Assembly (NCBI GenBank): GCA_003971905.1
Contig: RSEE01000070.1
Location: 126,501-190,500 of the forward strand
From: Moniliella sp. 'wahieum'
Taxonomy: Eukaryota; Basidiomycota; Moniliellomycetes; Moniliellales; Moniliellaceae
Reading direction: 5' to 3'
DNA: 64,000 nucleotides
Shown here: positions 5,301-14,787 of the stretch, one piece after another
Layout of the letters: each line of letters opens with the position of its first letter
Position numbering within the stretch: position 1 is the first letter of the stretch
Notes under the pieces: model-generated
What the model was told of the DNA's origin: nothing
The model's input: the letters and a program-made list of their open reading frames with translations, nothing else
Databases searched by the model: none
Translations under genes and position numbers: made by a program

Positions 5301-8300
5301 GGCGAGCAGTATGCACCTGAAGGTGAGCAGTATGCACCTGAGGGTGAACAGTACGCACTGAAGGTGAGCATACGCGCGGAGTAGAGTACGCCGCTCAGAG
5401 AGCAGTATGCGCTGAAGTGATCAGTACGGCCGCTCAGGGAGAGCAGTATGCACCTGAGTGAGTACGCCGCTCAGAAGAACAGTACGCACCTGAAGGTGAA
5501 CAATATGCACCTGAGGGTGAGCAGTACGCACCTGAAGGTGAACATATGCACCTGAGGGTGAGCAGTATGCACCTGAGGGTGAGCAGTATGCACCTGAGGG
5601 TGAGCAGTATGCACCTGAGGTGAGCAGTATGCCACGAGGAGGAGTATCTTGCTCAAGGCCAGTACCCGGCCGAAGGCGAGCACGTCGCCGACCAACAGCA
5701 GCCTTACACTACCGAAGACGCACAGTATACGACAGAGTATGGGGCAGAGTATGCACCTACAGAAGGGTATGACCCAGCGGCTCAACCCGAGCAGGAGCAT
5801 CTGGGACCCGACGAAGACTACGCCACGGCACCTCCAGCTCCCTTCCCCGTCGCTTCTCCTTATACCCAGCCGTATGAGTACGAAGCGGAGGGCTGCCGCT
5901 GACCCCGGGCAGGAGTATGCGGAAGATGCGTACGGTGCTGAGGAAGGGTATGCTGGACAACAAGGCGAGTATCCTGCTCAAGATGGCGAATATGCTCCTC
6001 AAGAGGGCGAATATGCTCCTCAGGATGGGAGTATGCTCTCCAAGAGGGCGAGTATGCTGCTCAAGAGGGTGAGTATGCTGCTCAAGATGGCCAGTACGCA
6101 CCTCAAGAGGGTCATATGCGCAAGAGGGCGAGTATGCGCCTCAATATGGTGAGTACGCTGTACAGCAGGGTGAGTACCAAGACGGCCAATATGCGCAAGA
6201 AGGCGAGTACGCACAAGAAGGAGAGTACGCACAAGAAGGAGAGTACGCACAAGAAGGCGAGTATGAAACCAGGGAAGGGGCCGATCTTGCTGCTCCCAAG
6301 GGTGAGCCCAAGACTGAGGGAGACGACTTGGCAGGTCAACCGTCACAGGAAGCATATGATCCGTATGCCCCACAGGATACGGAGCAGGCCTATGCCCCGG
6401 CTGCATCCGAGGAGCAGAACGCACACGCGTCGGCTCCAGTCGCAGGGTATGGCGAGCACTACCAACCGGAGCAATACACCCAGCAGGAAGAGTATCCTCA
6501 GGACGCGCAAAGCTATCCTCATGATGGCCAGCCCATGGGTCAAGAGGGGGAGTATGGTGCCGAGGAAGGGTACCCCGACCCCGCATACACTGATCAAGAT
6601 GGCCAGTACGCGACGCAAGAGGGCCAGTATGCACCCCAACAAGAGTATGCGGCCCAGGAGGGGTCGTACGACGTCCAAGATGGATATGGCGCCGAAGCAG
6701 GCGCTTATGCCCCCGAGGGTCAGCAACAAGCCGGCCCAGTGCTGGACGAATCGGTGGCGATGGACGGTTACGCGCCTGATTCCCAAGCCGCCGCAGTTGG
6801 CGCACAGGATGGGTATGCATCTACGGATGCTTACGGTGTTGCACAGGACCCATATGCGCCTGTTGATCCTTATGCTCCGGCGGATCCGTACGCACCAGTC
6901 GATGCGTATCAAGGCCAAGGCTATGGCGGGTACGAGGACCAATCGCGCGAGCTCGGAGCTGGTGGATTGACGGCTACCCTCCTGCCGGTGAAGCTGGCAC
7001 GGCAGGATATGACATGTATGGCGGCGGTGACTATGCCCCTACGGGTATGCCACTCAAGGTCTGCCGGATGTGTTGGAGGAGCATCGCCGCCCACGGCCCA
7101 TCGTATCATTTGGTCCCGCTGGCCAGGTGGTTACCGTCTTCCCTGGCGCTGCCTTGCCGTCGGGTATGGGCAAGGGCACGCTAGCGCACATCCATCAGAT
7201 GCGTGAATTCCTTCCTGGCTCTTCGTACGGTCGACTGTTCGACCTGGACGACATAACGACCCCTCCCTTTGAGCGTCCGCGCCTTCAGGGGCCCTGTCTC
7301 GCGCCACGGGCGCTGGTGGCGCCACCATCAAGGCCAAGAAGGCTGCCCTGATGCAATTGTTGCAAGGCAAGGTTGACGAGGCAAAGAAGGCGGTGCAGTA
7401 TCTCCGCTCCCACTCATCGTCCGCACGTAGCATGCCTCGGAGTCGCGCTGCTACCCCCCCACCCCTACGGTAGTCCAACAGGAGCCTTCGCCAGAGGGGG
7501 TTAGCGAGGCTGATTTGATGGAAGATCGCATCTTGCTTCTTCAGATCATCGTCATTCTCCTCCAACACGATGGTGGTGTGGCCAATCCGTACGTATTCCC
7601 CTCTGATTGAGCAACGCCGACTAGTTGATCTGACCTTTTTGATGTGAACAGAACTGCGTTTGATGATGCAGTCGCTGGCTTGCTCCGAGAAGCAGCAGTC
7701 AGTCGGCGACAAGCAGTGCCCGCCTCAGCCGCCCCAGCGATTGGTTCTACAGCACCCGGTGCTCCCACCTTGGCTTTGAACGGACACAATGTCAATAAGC
7801 TGGTATCCGACGAGCAGGGTTCCCATGCTACTGTCTTGGCCGAGTTGGAAGGTCTTTTGATGCATGGCCAGCGGCGCGATGCTCTTACTCTGGCCGTCAA
7901 TGCCGGCCTGTTTGACCATGCGCTGGTCATTGCTTCGTCACTCGACAAGGATATTTGGCGTGAGACGGTGGAAAATTCATCTCACACACGGCCTGATGGA
8001 CGGTCGGCACCCGAGGATGATGCGCTGGAGCCCCCTCAACCCGCTTATATGGGCTCGCGTCGCAGTAGTGCCGCCAATTCGGCTGCCACGGCCGCGACGG
8101 GCGTGACGGTGAACTTGAGTCCCAATCTGCGTTTGAGCCAGGCAGACCTCCAAGTGGCCTACTCGCCACCTTGCTGGTCAAAACCCCGGATGGGTGAAGA
8201 ACTTTTTCTCGCACCAATGCTTGGGAGAGGATGCCCATGCCGTTTGGCCCGCTGCCGCTGCTCTGATCCTCAGCACTCGCGCCAAGGGAGACACCTCATC

Positions 8301-10359
8301 TTTACTCGCCATGGGCGATGGTCTGCGTGCGCAGGGCCGCTTTGTGGCTGCCCAGTTCTTGTTTCCTTCTCGCACCTCCCCAGATTGTGTTCGGCAATGC
8401 GGAGCAAGGGGCTCGCATCACGCTCATTGGCTCGGACAACCCGCTACAGGACTTCTGTTTCCGTCGCAACGTCGACCACATTTGCCTCACCGAAATCGTC
8501 GAATTTGCGTTGTCACTCGCGCCTGTACCTAAAGGGGCAGAACCGTTGCAGGTCTTCCGCACCTTCAAGCATACAAGCTTTTACATGCGTATCAGCTTGC
8601 GGAGGCAGGTGAGACGGCCGCCGCCAGCAAGTATTGCGACGCCATCTCCACTGCTATCAAAGCGGCTGCGCCCACCAAGTCCATTCCCCCTGGCGCGCCT
8701 CAACCTGGTGGAGGGTACTACCATGTGACGCTGCTTGAGCAACTTAAAGAGGCATCGATGCTCTTTGCCCCCCCATTCGCAAGGAAAGTCGTCTTGGACA
8801 ACCAAGATCCAGCGCCCGACTATGGATGGGATGGGTGGCGCCCTGGAGGGCTTCTTGACCAAGTTCATCGCTGGTGACGACGAGCAGACTTCCCCCACGA
8901 AACCCGACAAGGCTGGCCCCAAGGAGGAGTCTGAGGAGATTGGCCCCTTCTCTCACTTTAGTGCCATCACTCCCGCATCGAGCTGTGGGGGCACCCGAGC
9001 GCGCTCCTTCCGCACTTAGCCTGCGCGCGCCCTCGCCGTACCAGCGGGCACCGTCAGCTCAATCGTGCACCATCCCAACCTTCTCCTCACGCCTCTAGGT
9101 GCACCTCCTCGACCGTCGGAGTTGGGTCGTTCGTCTATGGCGACTGAATCGTCCGTCACACCCTTCCACACGGCTGGGCCTTCCCGTGCTACGAGCCCTA
9201 GCCCGTACGCCCCAGGCGCGTCGGTCGTTGATCCGTACGCTCCCCATGGGGGCCAATCGGCGATGGACCCTTACGCGCCAGGAGCTGATGCGGGTGAGGC
9301 GGCAGGTGACCCGTATGCGCCGGGAGCTGATGCTGGGCAGGCAGAAGTCGACCCTTATGCGCCGGCACCTCAAACGGGAGTTTGGACGGAAGATCAGCCG
9401 GATGCGTATGCACTCGGGCCCGACTCGCACCCCATGGAGAATGATTTGACGGTTGTGCCGGATGACCGAGCCGAGACACCTCAACCTCAACCTTCGTCAA
9501 CGGGCCACGAAACCGCGTTGACAGCTGCAGAGGAGACTCCATTGTCAGGCTCGGTCGACGAGTACGAGGATGCGCCCATGGACGGCGAGAATGCCGAGCC
9601 CAACTCGGACGGTTTCCTGCAGATGGCAGCCGTGCCGGACTTTGGCGTAGCATCTTCATCTGAGCCTCAACATGAAGAGCGGGAGGAGGAGACGATGACG
9701 ACCTGGGCCTAGGCAACGCTGCCAACAGCAGCCAGGATAAGGATGCGAAGGCCGAACAGAAAAAGCGGAGGAGGCCGCCAAGGCGCGTGAAGCTGAGGAA
9801 AAGGCCAAGAACGGGGGAGGATGGCTGAGTCGCCTGTTTACCAAAAAGCAAACATGACGGAGGATGGCAAGCCAGTGTACAAGGCTCATCTGGGAGGTGA
9901 GAAGACGAGGTACTACGACAAGGAACTCAAGCGCTGGATCAAGCCTGGGCAGGAAGACGAAGTCGCTGCCTCGGCTACGCCGCCCCCCCCGTGGACCGGG
10001 CAAGTCAGTGCCCAAGTCCGAGCCAGCGACAAGGGTTGGGACGCCGGCCGGCGCGCCCGCCGGCCATGACGGTGCCACTCCTTCAGGTCCTCCTCGTGCC
10101 ACTTCCTCTTTGGCAGGGAGGGAAGACCATGCGGCTCTTCAGCCCCCACAAACGCCAGCTCCGCCCGCTGGCCCGGCGGCCAAGTCAGCACCTGCCTCTA
10201 CCGCCGGGTCGGGGCCGCCTTCGTCCTCAGCGACGCCTACGCGCCGGGCACACAGACCCCTACCCCGTCACAGCACCGGGTGAGCCGACGCCTGGTCCCC
10301 CGCGTGCGGGGCGCAACAAGAAAAAGCCGCTGAACCGTCGCTATGTCCCCCTTAGCTAG
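2377..10359 (+). CDS. SEC16: SEC16, COPII coat assembly scaffold at ER exit sites (multiple assembly frameshifts)
   Basis: Sec16 organises ER exit sites and binds Sar1, Sec23, Sec24 and the Sec13/31 coat. The N-terminus (MSTRGHARPLSVADSSALFG from 2377) is followed by about 4.5 kb of disordered Q/Y/P/E-rich sequence with tandem repeats. The central conserved domain lies at about 7065-7560 (RPIVSFGPAGQVVTVFPGA, then LMQLLQGKVDEAKKAVQYL). An intron at 7589-7651 joins VANP to TAFDDAVAGLL. The alpha-solenoid ACE1 domain follows at about 7660-8740 (LEGLLMHGQRRDALTLAVNA, GLFDHALVIASSLDKDIWR, HACRNVDHICLTEIVEFALSL-like end). The conserved C-terminal tail is at 9850-9960 (DGKPVYKAHLG, YYDKELKRWIKPGQ) and ends KKPLNRRYVPLS. 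At 9690-9860 three shifts are each repaired by adding one G, so they are probably sequence errors. The length fits large basidiomycete Sec16. Confidence 0.9.
5304..5640 (+). repeat. 21-nt coding tandem repeat (EQYAPEG) inside SEC16
   Basis: A 21-base unit encoding E-Q-Y-A-P-E-G repeats about 12-15 times, most regularly at 5480-5630, in the disordered N-terminal half of SEC16. Several units are one base short, which breaks the frame. The A/G third-position differences between units (tat/tac, gaa/gag) preserve the amino acids. That indicates selection on the protein repeat rather than recent DNA slippage alone. Confidence 0.9.
5960..6265 (+). repeat. Second coding repeat block in SEC16 (GEYAPQE, then 18-nt EYAQEG)
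   Basis: A 21-base unit encoding G-E-Y-A-P/A-Q-E/D runs from about 5960 to 6180. It passes into a near-perfect 18-base unit (E-Y-A-Q-E-G) with three or four copies at 6205-6260. Degenerate relatives (GQYA, EYAAQEG) continue to about 6720. The block is acidic and tyrosine-rich, like the 5.3-kb block, and probably arose from the same ancestral motif. Confidence 0.88.
7589..7651 (+). other. SEC16 intron, 63 nt
   Basis: The donor is GTACGT and the acceptor is GAACAG, with GATCTGACC as branch site. Splicing joins the reading frame as GVANP-TAFDDAVAGLL, which restores the start of the ACE1 solenoid. Confidence 0.85.
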
Positions 10360-10955
10360 GAGGGCCCACACTCCCTTTCTATCGCCTGTTTCTCCCTTTG
10401 CCCTTACCACCCCCCCCCCCCCCGCGTGCAATAGCACGTGCTGGTGCGGGCACGCTCCGCACCTGTGCTGGCTGCTGGCCAATTGCTGCTGGCGGTGCAA
10501 AACGTACTAAATGCCAAAATGAATCCACAATGTCTCGTCTCAGATCTCAGGCTTGAAGGTAGTACTTGCATCGAGCTTTGCCATATGGCCTCCTGAGGTC
10601 CAACCAAGATCCTATTGCACTGATCTACCCGTGTTGATCCTGCTGTGTTGCTGGGGAGGAGCACTGGCCTCTCCCAAAGTCCAGATGGCATCGATGGCAG
10701 AATAGAAAGATTGAAAGTGAAATCGCGTTTCCATATGCGACCCTTCCCCGCCAGGAGTGGGGCCGACTGGCAGGCAATGAGCTTAGGCACCCCCCACCCT
10801 CACAGAGAGCAGCACCTGCGATCCGCCACTGTCAACGTCTTCCATCTACCGTTGGCCATGGTTTCCCTCGAGTGTGGGTGCTATGGGTGTGGTTCGCTAT
10901 CCCCTTCTGTCTGATAGTGCGATGTTGGACGCGGAGGCACACGTTCACTATATAT
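10360..10955. other. Intergenic, SEC16 3' region
   Basis: There is no supported gene here. The region contains a run of about 15 cytosines near 10410-10424 and an AT-rich transition (ACTATATATATGAC) just before the SAR1-like pseudogene. Confidence 0.6.
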
Positions 10956-11560
10956 ATGACACGCTTTCTCTCCGCTTTAATTTGCGTTTGGTACACCAAA
11001 TTTAAGACGGCCAAGGATCTCTTCCTTGACGTGGGCGATGCCAGCAATAAGACGAAGCTGCGGCACATGCTGAAGAATGATGACCTGGCCACCCCAGGCC
11101 ACACTCCATCCAATACTTTTTCGTACCTTTTGGGTTGGCTGGGTGTGCAACTCGCGGCCTACGACTTGGGAGGTCACGTGCAAGCACCCCGCCTGTGTGG
11201 ATGGGCTACTTGCACGAGGTCGACAGACAGCGTTACTGTAGGTACTAGTCGTCCGCATGGTTGTTTCCTCCGACATTATCCCGCTTGGAGAGCGACATAA
11301 AAAGCTCGAATGGCTTCTTGCCATTGGGGAGCTTGCCAAGGTGCCCTTCTTTATCCTTGGTAACAGATTGACTTTTCTTGCGCGGTCTCCACGGAGTGGT
11401 GAGCTACGTCTCGTGGTTGGCCTTACTATATAATGCCAAACCATAGGTAAAGACAATGTGCTTCCCAACGACGTTCTCCCTAGAGATCTGCATGTCCTCT
11501 GTCGGTGGGCGCAAAGAGGATACGACAAGGGGTTCTACTGGTTCTTCCTATTCTTGCGTC
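10956..11560 (+). pseudogene. Decayed SAR1-like small GTPase
   Basis: Sar1 is the GTPase that starts COPII coat assembly. Similarity covers the whole protein in collinear order. The N-terminal part reads FLSALICVWYTKFKTAKDLF at 10956-11020. The P-loop/switch 1 region includes RHMLKNDDLATP. Switch 2 is well kept (AAYDLGGHVQAPRL, about 11150-11200). The region before G4 reads LLAIGELAKVPFFILGN (about 11300-11360). The C-terminal part reads QTIGKDNVLP, then QRGYDKGFYW (about 11440-11550). The copy is dead by sequence. The P-loop glycine-lysine pattern (normally G-L-D-N-A-G-K-T-T) reads D-V-G-D-A-S-N-K-T-K. The N-K-x-D specificity motif reads N-R-L-T. Stops and several frame changes occur. The lesions include substitutions at catalytic sites, unlike the single-base losses in neighbouring genes. 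The copy lies 0.6 kb after SEC16, whose product binds Sar1. Confidence 0.85.
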
Positions 11561-12302
11561 CCTGTACCTCGTCTGCCGCAGAAAATTTCTGGGAACACTG
11601 ACTACACCTCTCGGTTGTATTTGAACACCCTCATCCATGCGCCTCTGCCCTTCAACTTTTTTCTCGGATCTTACCAATCAGAGGGTAATACGACTTTGAC
11701 GTGGGTTGTCTTACGCTGCTTTGTCGATGGACTCGCGTTTCCTCTGCCCATTCTTGATCGGGTTGCTTTTCGTATTCAACTTTTCTGCAAATTTCCTAAC
11801 TAAAGGCAAAACACTACTGCTGCGCGCCTGCATTATGGCCCACATTATATGCCACCTACAGACGGGGTGGTAATGACTGCCAAAAGTTCATGGATTGAAA
11901 CGGGTGGGCAGCAATTGCGAGCACATTGCACCCGTGTGTACTACGATCGAAAGGGACTAGCTATAAAGGAGTAGGCAACTGGGTGTTCCGAATGGGTGCT
12001 GTGGGCGCTGCTGGGAAATAAATGGATTGCCTCCGCAGACACAGGCCTCTGTGGTCTCGCACTGAGACTGCGCTTTAAATTAAGTCGCTTCCCTCGTGCA
12101 GCGACGCTATATTCCAGTCTCCGACGGGAGCACACAGGCCAGTACCACAGCGATTTTAATTTTGCCCACACTTAGTACGAGATGAGATCTCAGACTCTCA
12201 AGAGGGCAGCCGTCGACAACGTGAGACACTAGTACACCACCACTATCCTATAGAACCTATTTTTTCTGGGCGTATGCGTATAATGCATATACGTATGGCC
12301 TT
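11561..12302. other. Intergenic, upstream of the kinase
   Basis: I see no coding signal. The stretch is AT-richer than its surroundings and ends in a TATA-type promoter. Confidence 0.55.
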
Positions 12303-12310
12303 TATAAATA
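12303..12310 (+). promoter_or_regulatory. TATA box of the kinase gene
   Basis: TATAAATA lies 64 bases before the ATG at 12374. This is one reason to prefer that start over the upstream in-frame ATG at 12274, which would lie before the TATA element. Confidence 0.6.
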
Positions 12311-12373
12311 CCGTGTCCATGCCCCTTGCCATCGCCCCCCTCCCCCACACCACCAACCACAGCCCCTTGAGCA

Positions 12374-13736
12374 ATGGCTGTACTCCCGGCTCAACAGCAT
12401 GGCACTTTCATGAGCGCTTTGACCGCTGCGCGCACCGCGGTTGCTCGTGCTCTCACTACTACACGTCCGAAGAGAAGGAGGAAAGGAGAAGGAGAGGAGA
12501 AGGAGAAGGGAAAGAAAGGAGAAGGAGAAGGAGAAGGAGAAGGAGAAGGAGAAGGAGAAGGAGAAGGAGAAGGAGAAGGAGAAGGAGAAGGAGAGAGGAG
12601 AATGATGGGAATAAAGAAGCCGTCCGCTTTGCAGCACTTCGCATTCTAGGCCGTGGCGGTTATGGCACTGTTTACCTTGCCAAGCGTTCAACCGATGGAA
12701 TGCTTTTGCCGTGAAGAGCATCCTCGTTATCTCACCCCAGCAACAGGGACCACACTAAGCACATTCTGAATGAGATCCACCTGATGCGCATCCTTTCTCA
12801 CCCCAACATCACGGCGTTGGTCCATTTCTTTGCCAGCACCCCATCTGTGTACGTATCCACCTCTCCCTAGAGTATGCAACGAAGAAGGCTTCAACGCTCC
12901 GGAGACCTGTTATACTGACATGACATATATTTGTGTTCATCGTGTGGGTTTTGCATTACAGTAGGACCCCAGACAAGCTCAATTCGATCTGCATCGTGAT
13001 GGAGTATGCACCAGGGGGGGACCTCAACAAGGTCTTGCGCCTCGCTTCCAAGAGCCGGAAGAATGGGGATGTGGGCCTGCCAGAGCGCACAATCCGCATT
13101 TACCTTCGCCAAGTGATCAGTGCCTTGGTAGCCTGTCATGATCATTATGGCGACATTGCCATCGAGCCGCACAAGTCCATTCTCCATCGTGATGTCAAGC
13201 CTGCAAACATTCTCGTGGACCAGCACGGGCGCCTGAAACTGTCTGACTTTGGGTTGGCCGGCGTGACGCGTCATCATCGGCAACTGTATGGGCGGTGTGG
13301 CACTCCAGGCTACATGGCCCCAGAGGTCTTGTTCCCCGACGGTACGCATACCAGCCCCAAGTCGGACCTCTGGTCAGTAGGTTGTATGTTGTACGAGATG
13401 TGCACCTTCCAGCCCCTGCTTAACATCGTCCCACACTCGTCCAAGAAAGAGAGCAAGGACGAGTACCGCAAGATCCTGTTCCGGCGGACCATGCGCATCT
13501 CCAATCCCGCCGTGCCCGCCAAGTATTCGCCTTGGCTCGTCCGCCTTCTGCACCGGCTGCTGTGTATCGACCGTACAAAGCGTCCCTCAGGGCCTGAGAT
13601 TCTTGCCATGCCCGAGTTGACCCAGGAGATTGAGGCCACCGAGCCCCCCGTGGAGGCAAGCGCCACCGCGGCGGAGAGCAAGGAGGAGGGCCACCGTAAG
13701 GCAAAGGCGCGCGTCAAGCAAGTCGCCTTCCCGTGA
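12374..13736 (+). CDS. NEK/NIMA-like serine/threonine protein kinase (frameshifted in assembly)
   Basis: All core kinase motifs can be read. The glycine loop is LGRGGYGTVYLA (about 12640), the ATP lysine is in AVKSI (about 12710), and the alpha-C region reads HILNEIHLMRILSHPNI (about 12757-12810). The hinge is IVMEYAPGGDL and the catalytic loop HRDVKPANIL. The magnesium motif is SDFGLAG, the activation segment GTPGYMAPEV, then SDLWSVGCMLYE. A tail of about 60 residues rich in E, A and K ends at 13736. The long insert before the HRD motif and the GTPxYMxPE segment suggest the NEK class, but I cannot fix the subfamily. A missing T at about 12704-12707 and one more shift near 12755 interrupt exon 1. 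The first 70 codons contain a GGAGAA microsatellite whose length sets the frame. Confidence 0.82.
12517..12594 (+). repeat. (GGAGAA)n microsatellite in the kinase N-terminus
   Basis: About 13 uninterrupted hexamer units are preceded by imperfect ones from 12476. In the frame of the ATG at 12374 the array encodes Gly-Glu repeats after a basic KRRRK stretch. The kinase domain itself continues in another frame, so either copy number or a missing base separates the two. Confidence 0.95.
12849..12961 (+). other. Kinase intron, 113 nt
   Basis: The donor is GTACGTATCC and the acceptor ATTACAG, with TACTGACAT as a possible branch site. Splicing joins FASTPSV to RTPDKLNSICIVMEY and restores the kinase N-lobe. 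Confidence 0.8.
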
Positions 13737-14787
13737 AGAGGGGTGTACATGGGGCGAACCCACAATGAGGGAATGGAGATGGAGGTGGCGAACAGAAAAC
13801 AAGACCCATATACGGAGCGTGGGGCGAGGGCTGATGAAGACGATGTCCTCGCTTGTGTTTTAATACCGACGAGACGGTGTTCCGGCGAGCTTTTTTGTCG
13901 CTTATTGTGCGACGACGACTCGGTTGTTTCTTCGCACTTCTATCCAAACAAACACCAACATTTTGAATACGTATCTCTTGTCTCCACAGTGTATGTGATC
14001 GATGTGATCGATAGGACATAGGACAAGTTTTCCGAAAACAGGGTAAACTTCTATCTATAGTGTTCCCAAAGGAAGATATATATACGATCATTTACAGGCG
14101 AGAGCCTCTTCATCATCTTCATCAGTAGTACACCCGCGAATTGGGCACACTCACAGGAGCAACATGGACTACAGTTATGATCGTAAGAGACCCGTATTTT
14201 GTAGCACACATTAGTATTAGTCTTGCTAGTACACGTCCATTTCATTGACAGAGCTTAAGGCTGGGACAGGGGGAACGCTACGTCTAAACCTAACCGTTCA
14301 TCTTGCGGGGGTTACTTGGAGGCGCCACTAAGGTCAAAAGGAACCAGGGGGATCGCCAGGATATCAGGACCCTCCGGTTCTCACCACCCGGTCCCGTACC
14401 CTAGGAAGCGTGTGTGGACACGGAGGAACGTGGTTGACATCCGAGCGAGGAAAATATATAACTGGTTGAGGCAGTTGATGCTATAGGTAACGACTCTGGG
14501 TAGACAGATGTGTGGACCATCCATACTCAGCTGGCATTAGCGCCATTCGCGCTAGTATAATGCGAGGCAAAGAGTCGCTGCAACTCGTGGGGTTCATCCC
14601 TCGGTCTCTCTCACGATAAAACGGTGGACTTGCCTCTGCGATGCCCCAAGACGGACGAGAGATATAGTAGCGCTCCATTTTTATATTGCGATCCCGCGTC
14701 TACCAACACAAGATGCAGCCACCTGCATTGACATCCGTCCAGAGGCAGAAATATATGGGAGTTAAAAGAGGAGACAGCTATTGCGGT
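13737..14787. other. Intergenic between the kinase and CBF5, with a dispersed repeat
   Basis: There is no gene I can support. A 181-bp dispersed repeat copy (14232-14412) lies in it, and the rest is non-repetitive within this window. The two flanking genes are convergent, so this is 3' sequence for both. Confidence 0.6.
14232..14412 (+). repeat. Dispersed repeat, copy A (inverted relative to 50358-50535)
   Basis: About 180 bp from CACGTCCATTTCATTGACAG to CGTACCCTAGGAAGCG match 50358-50535 on the opposite strand. There are only a few substitutions and one-base indels. Flanks outside these limits differ completely, so the borders are sharp. The element family is unknown. Confidence 0.9.

Follow-up and report, generated by a model that had tools for sequence, protein, structure and literature searches.

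A decayed SAR1 copy beside SEC16, most probably an old pseudogene

A stretch resembling SAR1 adjoins SEC16 in the DNA analysed here (a window of 64,000 nucleotides), and it raises the question whether this locus still encodes a protein, possibly one without nucleotide binding, or is the remnant of a gene. We are highly confident that window 11004–11559 (forward strand) is an old SAR1 pseudogene. Its reading frame would have been broken before the haplotypes or homeologues that carry it, C70 (the contig of the window) and C11, diverged, and it would have decayed later without constraint at the protein level.

The pseudogene body runs through several frames and is delimited by tblastn pieces, DNA matches to other SAR1 loci, shuffles, and a codon-position test. 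In comparison with yeast Sar1 (SAR1, the COPII small GTPase; PDB 1m2o, 6zga), the decayed copy is collinear from approximately residue 19 to near the C-terminus, and the same span is found relative to the intact SAR1 on contig C28. The collinear Sar1 similarity noted in the preliminary description is borne out by several lines of evidence. Against C28, two collinear tblastn pieces in different frames are observed, at 11004–11195 (34/64 residues identical) and 11248–11541 (38/98 identical, one stop read through), with a combined E of 4e-21. The better piece scores 57.8 bits, compared to a maximum of 24.6 bits when the stretch was Markov-shuffled 2000 times, with any match at all in 267 of the shuffles; the homology is thus beyond chance. 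When the first piece was used as a phmmer query against the PDB, yeast Sar1 ranked first (E 5e-7). With the Pfam Arf profile, two window pieces score 17.7 and 12.9 bits, below the curated cut-off of 22.3, a third piece gives no match, and the decayed locus is absent from the list returned by a search of the genome with this profile at E 0.001. The copy had also been described as full-length from the N-terminus, and this part of the claim is not borne out: the resemblance to intact SAR1 sets in at about residue 19, detection of the ~18 residues before it is unreliable, and SAR1 similarity is without support in the proposed N-terminal part at 10956–11003. At the other end, DNA similarity to intact SAR1 extends to ~11559. 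The C-terminal motif, earlier described as R-Q-G-Y-G-E-G-like, is degenerate (RGYDKG).

GTPases carry the P-loop GxxxxGK[ST] and the NKxD motif. In contrast to functional SAR1, the decayed copy has lost both, has no single open frame over ~190 codons, and shows no present purifying selection on a protein (see below). Loss of both nucleotide-binding sites by substitution had been proposed earlier. This holds for the former P-loop region (11028–11054, forward strand), as the alignment places a substitution plus an inserted codon there in the window copy and likewise in its counterpart on C11, but not for the former NKxD region of the window copy (11359–11373, forward strand): here the frame is disrupted by a length change of one base, whereas the C11 copy stays in frame and has another residue in place of the aspartate. 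Former switch 2 (11160–11186, forward strand), said to be intact, is indeed readable as YDLGGHVQA in the window copy. As the frame is broken within switch 2 in the C11 copy, its survival is no sign of selection.

The C11 counterpart was identified by a DNA search, which located a second decayed copy at C11:960356-961017 (87% identical over 660/661 bases) together with weaker matches (64–68%) at three SAR1 loci. The surrounding C11 block is collinear with window 1 to 26029, i.e. up to the end of the C11 stretch compared, and the four long pieces of this alignment are 92–95% identical. Over window 1–26029, C70 and C11 form a collinear pair of haplotypes or homeologues, and many of the coding bins contain indels; the assembly looks like one of the unpolished long-read type.

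The latter observation bears on a trivial explanation, namely that an intact gene merely looks broken in a noisy assembly. A genome search for an intact SAR1, suggested in the preliminary description, found it at C28 in one open frame. The search at the protein level gave 37 rows, eight of which are SAR1-grade pieces (88–100% identity) at C28, C11:24.7k, C21 and C36 and four of which belong to the two decayed copies (40–52%); the other 25, at 30–40% identity, are by inference other Arf-type GTPases. Indels are frequent, and even the SAR1-grade copies outside C28 fall into several frame pieces (2 at C11:24.7k, 2 at C21 and 3 at C36). Still, every piece of these copies retains 88–99% protein identity, a level high enough to fit assembly indels, in contrast to the 40–52% of the decayed copies. 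Relative to C28, the window copy carries 12 indels (nine not multiples of three) and the C11 copy 13 (ten not multiples of three), compared to one between C21 and C28. By exact alignment place, three indels are identical in both decayed copies, nine are found in the window copy only and ten in the C11 copy only; merged by place, 3/16 show an equal net change in the two copies (+3, +2 and +4), and two of these common changes (+2, +4) break the frame. Together with the common substitutions, such lesions on two contigs speak against assembly error, which was rejected as their cause through the C11 copy. A gene intact behind sequencing noise is thus hardly credible.

If the alignment is right, the SAR1 frame would already have been broken in the common ancestor of the decayed copies. 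It should be noted that the common +2 and +4, together with a +12 that the C11 copy carries in between, sum to a multiple of three, so that only the middle part of the gene may have been out of frame in this ancestor.

Next, the differences between the two decayed copies were used as a measure of present constraint. The pair differs at 49/506 sites (9.7%), spread evenly over the codon positions (15/168, 16/169 and 18/169; p = 0.86), compared to 4/171, 0/171 and 52/171 for C28 versus C21. Four coding controls between C70 and C11 gave a mixed picture. The neighbouring PEX13 (4/412, 4/413, 22/412) and a RhoGEF gene (3/316, 4/315, 16/315) show a third-position excess; it is absent from the kinase (6, 10 and 11 of 257 each) and from a SEC16 piece (9/325, 4/323, 2/326), in which indels blur the frame. 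The excess is therefore missing in 2/4 controls, which counts against the codon-position evidence. The overall difference rate is below the 9.7% of the decayed pair in 4/4 controls. In 250-base bins, identity between the window and C11 amounts to 90.2–92.3% in the pseudogene and 95.5–99.6% in SEC16 (bins 7000–9750), with 93.8 and 94.4% (10500, 10750), 91.2% (11750) and 97.6% (12000) in adjoining non-coding bins. Changes private to one decayed copy comprise 7 and 5 silent and 11 and 20 amino-acid changing codons. The even spread over codon positions, combined with a rate above all four coding controls, indicates that no protein is maintained now, and a non-GTPase Sar1-like protein made today is contradicted by the even codon-position differences. 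The earlier assignment as a decayed SAR1 copy therefore stands in its essentials (homology, indels, the intact C28 gene elsewhere and even codon-position differences), apart from the full-length claim.

Whether a protein was made in the past is a separate matter. An ancestor proxy was built by assigning the C28 base to sites at which the decayed copies differ and one of the two matches C28, a rule that leans towards the intact gene. This proxy contains no stops, compared to 2.8–3.5 expected if the substitutions are placed at random; counts this low arose in 221 and 140 out of 5000 simulations. In the decayed copies themselves a stop deficit is not clear when substitutions are placed at random in simulations, with one stop in the window copy and two in the C11 copy (569/441 and 1375/1129 of 5000 simulations as low, respectively). 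Replacements in the proxy are more conservative than expected by chance (BLOSUM62 sum 449 versus 396 ± 21.5; 13/1500 as high), whereas the count of identical residues lies within the ordinary range (220/1500 randomisations). Few stops and mild replacements allow for a phase of weak constraint, and part of the divergence may have accrued under such coding constraint before the gene died. A divergent non-GTPase Sar1-like protein, weakly constrained for a time and lost before the haplotypes split, would account for the stop deficit and the mild replacements, and it overlaps with the pseudogene reading. The effects are small, though, and derive from a single alignment and a proxy leaning to the C28 base; furthermore, the two common frame-breaking changes imply that part of the gene was already out of frame at that time. 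We consider this scenario improbable, and more improbable still the specific version in which a Sar1-like protein without nucleotide binding was once made, encoded beside SEC16, and lost before the haplotype split.

For the age of the pseudogene, a simple Jukes–Cantor clock was applied to first and second codon positions (95% bootstrap ranges in brackets). Divergence from intact SAR1 is 0.354 (0.286–0.432) and change per decayed copy since their split 0.052 (0.037–0.067), a ratio of 6.8 (5.0–9.7). Third-position divergence is 0.644 for decayed versus intact and 0.390 for C28 versus C21. If rates were even, the duplication would be older than the C28/C21 split and decay would have begun early. 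The window copy gives the C28 SAR1 residue at 81/159 readable codons and the C11 copy at 82/160. At sites where C28 and yeast differ, the C28 residue is found in 14/45 cases in the window copy and 13/44 in the C11 copy, and the yeast residue in none, which indicates that the copy arose in its own lineage after the split from yeast. This lineage is probably fungal, as the Sar1 of this genome is closest to yeast (289.9 bits, the next, non-fungal entries scoring 258.6 and below), and as the domain make-up of the neighbouring genes points the same way.

On this basis, a further SAR1 copy would have arisen in a probably fungal lineage before the intact-looking loci C28 and C21 split; its frame would have been lost prior to the divergence of C70 and C11 as haplotypes or homeologues, and it would have decayed afterwards without protein-level constraint, the work of SAR1 presumably being done by copies elsewhere in the genome. 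We infer the order of duplications, the time of death, and the absence of a role at the transcript level. As to origin, an old duplicate and a former home of SAR1 are both compatible with the data.

A third origin, a processed (reverse-transcribed) copy instead of a DNA-level duplicate or old SAR1 home, overlaps with the pseudogene reading as well and was assessed from flanks and introns. When window 1–40000 was compared to the surroundings of the C28 and C21 loci (~23 kb each), matches were found only within the SAR1-like stretch (11303–11559 and 11158–11563), so that the flanks are without similarity to either locus. C28 itself is 95% identical to C11:24.7k over 3.4 kb and 79% identical to C21 over ~1 kb including the gene. 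No trace of the intact gene's second intron can be made out in the decayed copy: the tail comparisons (n = 12) are not beyond chance (67 to 887 of 1000 shuffles as high). Among the 12 head comparisons, four with 160 bases were reached by 10, 18, 36 and 46 of 1000 shuffles and the other eight by at least 415; as the one pairing inspected (C28 versus the C11 copy) is an implausible end overlap, the head comparisons were discarded as intron evidence. Both the dissimilar flanks and the unseen second intron are in line with a processed copy. Conversely, a possible remnant of SAR1 exon 1 is located near 10856–10890 on the forward strand (a weak lead with approximate ends, judged by resemblance versus shuffles), where a start-codon context is followed by donor-like sequence, resembling exon 1 of intact SAR1. 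Four comparisons of this candidate are equalled by 5, 40, 67 and 399 of 3000 shuffles, and with C28 exon 1 as query the score of the C11 copy is reached by 15/492 and that of the window copy by 64/492 background blocks of the window. The weak match lies 145–146 bases before the first conserved codon, compared to 114–116 in the intact intron-bearing genes, and would fit a kept intron. We regard a processed origin as unlikely, if less so than the former non-GTPase protein discussed above.

In the course of the flank comparison, a 3.7-kb inverted stretch, 98% identical, was noted between C28:180600-184300 and C21:332344-336034. Its distance from either SAR1 locus is several kb, and the two loci are otherwise ~80% alike; on C21, 211 bases from one end of it are repeated ~5 kb off in direct orientation. 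This stretch looks like a recent LTR-type transposon, its C28 side being truncated by the end of the stretch compared.

Pseudogenes of duplicated housekeeping genes are a known general kind, and the SAR1 pseudogene resembles them in its common lesions, its even codon-position divergence and the presence of copies elsewhere; no notable difference was found. PseudoGTPases, by comparison, are maintained proteins. They include degenerate septins (PMC10731463) and the p190RhoGAP domains (PMC5593906), and are marked by loss of nucleotide-binding motifs. Such motif loss is shared by the SAR1 relic, whereas no protein is maintained at the latter. The relic is an ordinary pseudogene, not a new protein, and matters little in itself, gene duplication and loss being common. 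For a genome whose two haplotypes have diverged, it may provide a neutral yardstick. It also calls for caution, in that a COPII gene relic next to SEC16 need not imply a functional pair.

The adjacency to SEC16 proper was correctly recognised in the preliminary description and needs no functional reading. The central and C-terminal part of SEC16 lies upstream in several frame pieces (7629–10359, forward strand; 3′ end inferred from the last open frame), two of which match PF12931 at 7629–8612 and 8729–9019 (E 5e-10 and 1.3e-5). A SEC16 query found only the window and C11 places in the genome at the sensitivity used, and the titles and abstract openings covered by literature searches contained nothing on SAR1 pseudogenes or SEC16–SAR1 gene order.

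Downstream, a protein kinase gene follows (largest open frame 12924–13736, forward strand; PF00069, E 2.5e-45). Window 11939–14085 (2.1 kb, including this gene) recurs at C5:415099-417217 with 78% identity, i.e. the kinase is locally duplicated. The SEC16 query had no match on C5, and in 20 kb of this contig SAR1 matches were no better than E 0.98; the similarity to the C5 block starts at window 11939, 3′ of the pseudogene. The kinase frame at 12966–13736 has no indels between the contigs, yet its third-position excess is missing, and it is possibly relaxed or fast-evolving. Window 12469–12600, not far from the 5′ portion of the kinase gene, contains a long purine repeat of the GGAGAA type, and the C70/C11 alignment breaks inside this repeat, at 12495–12575.
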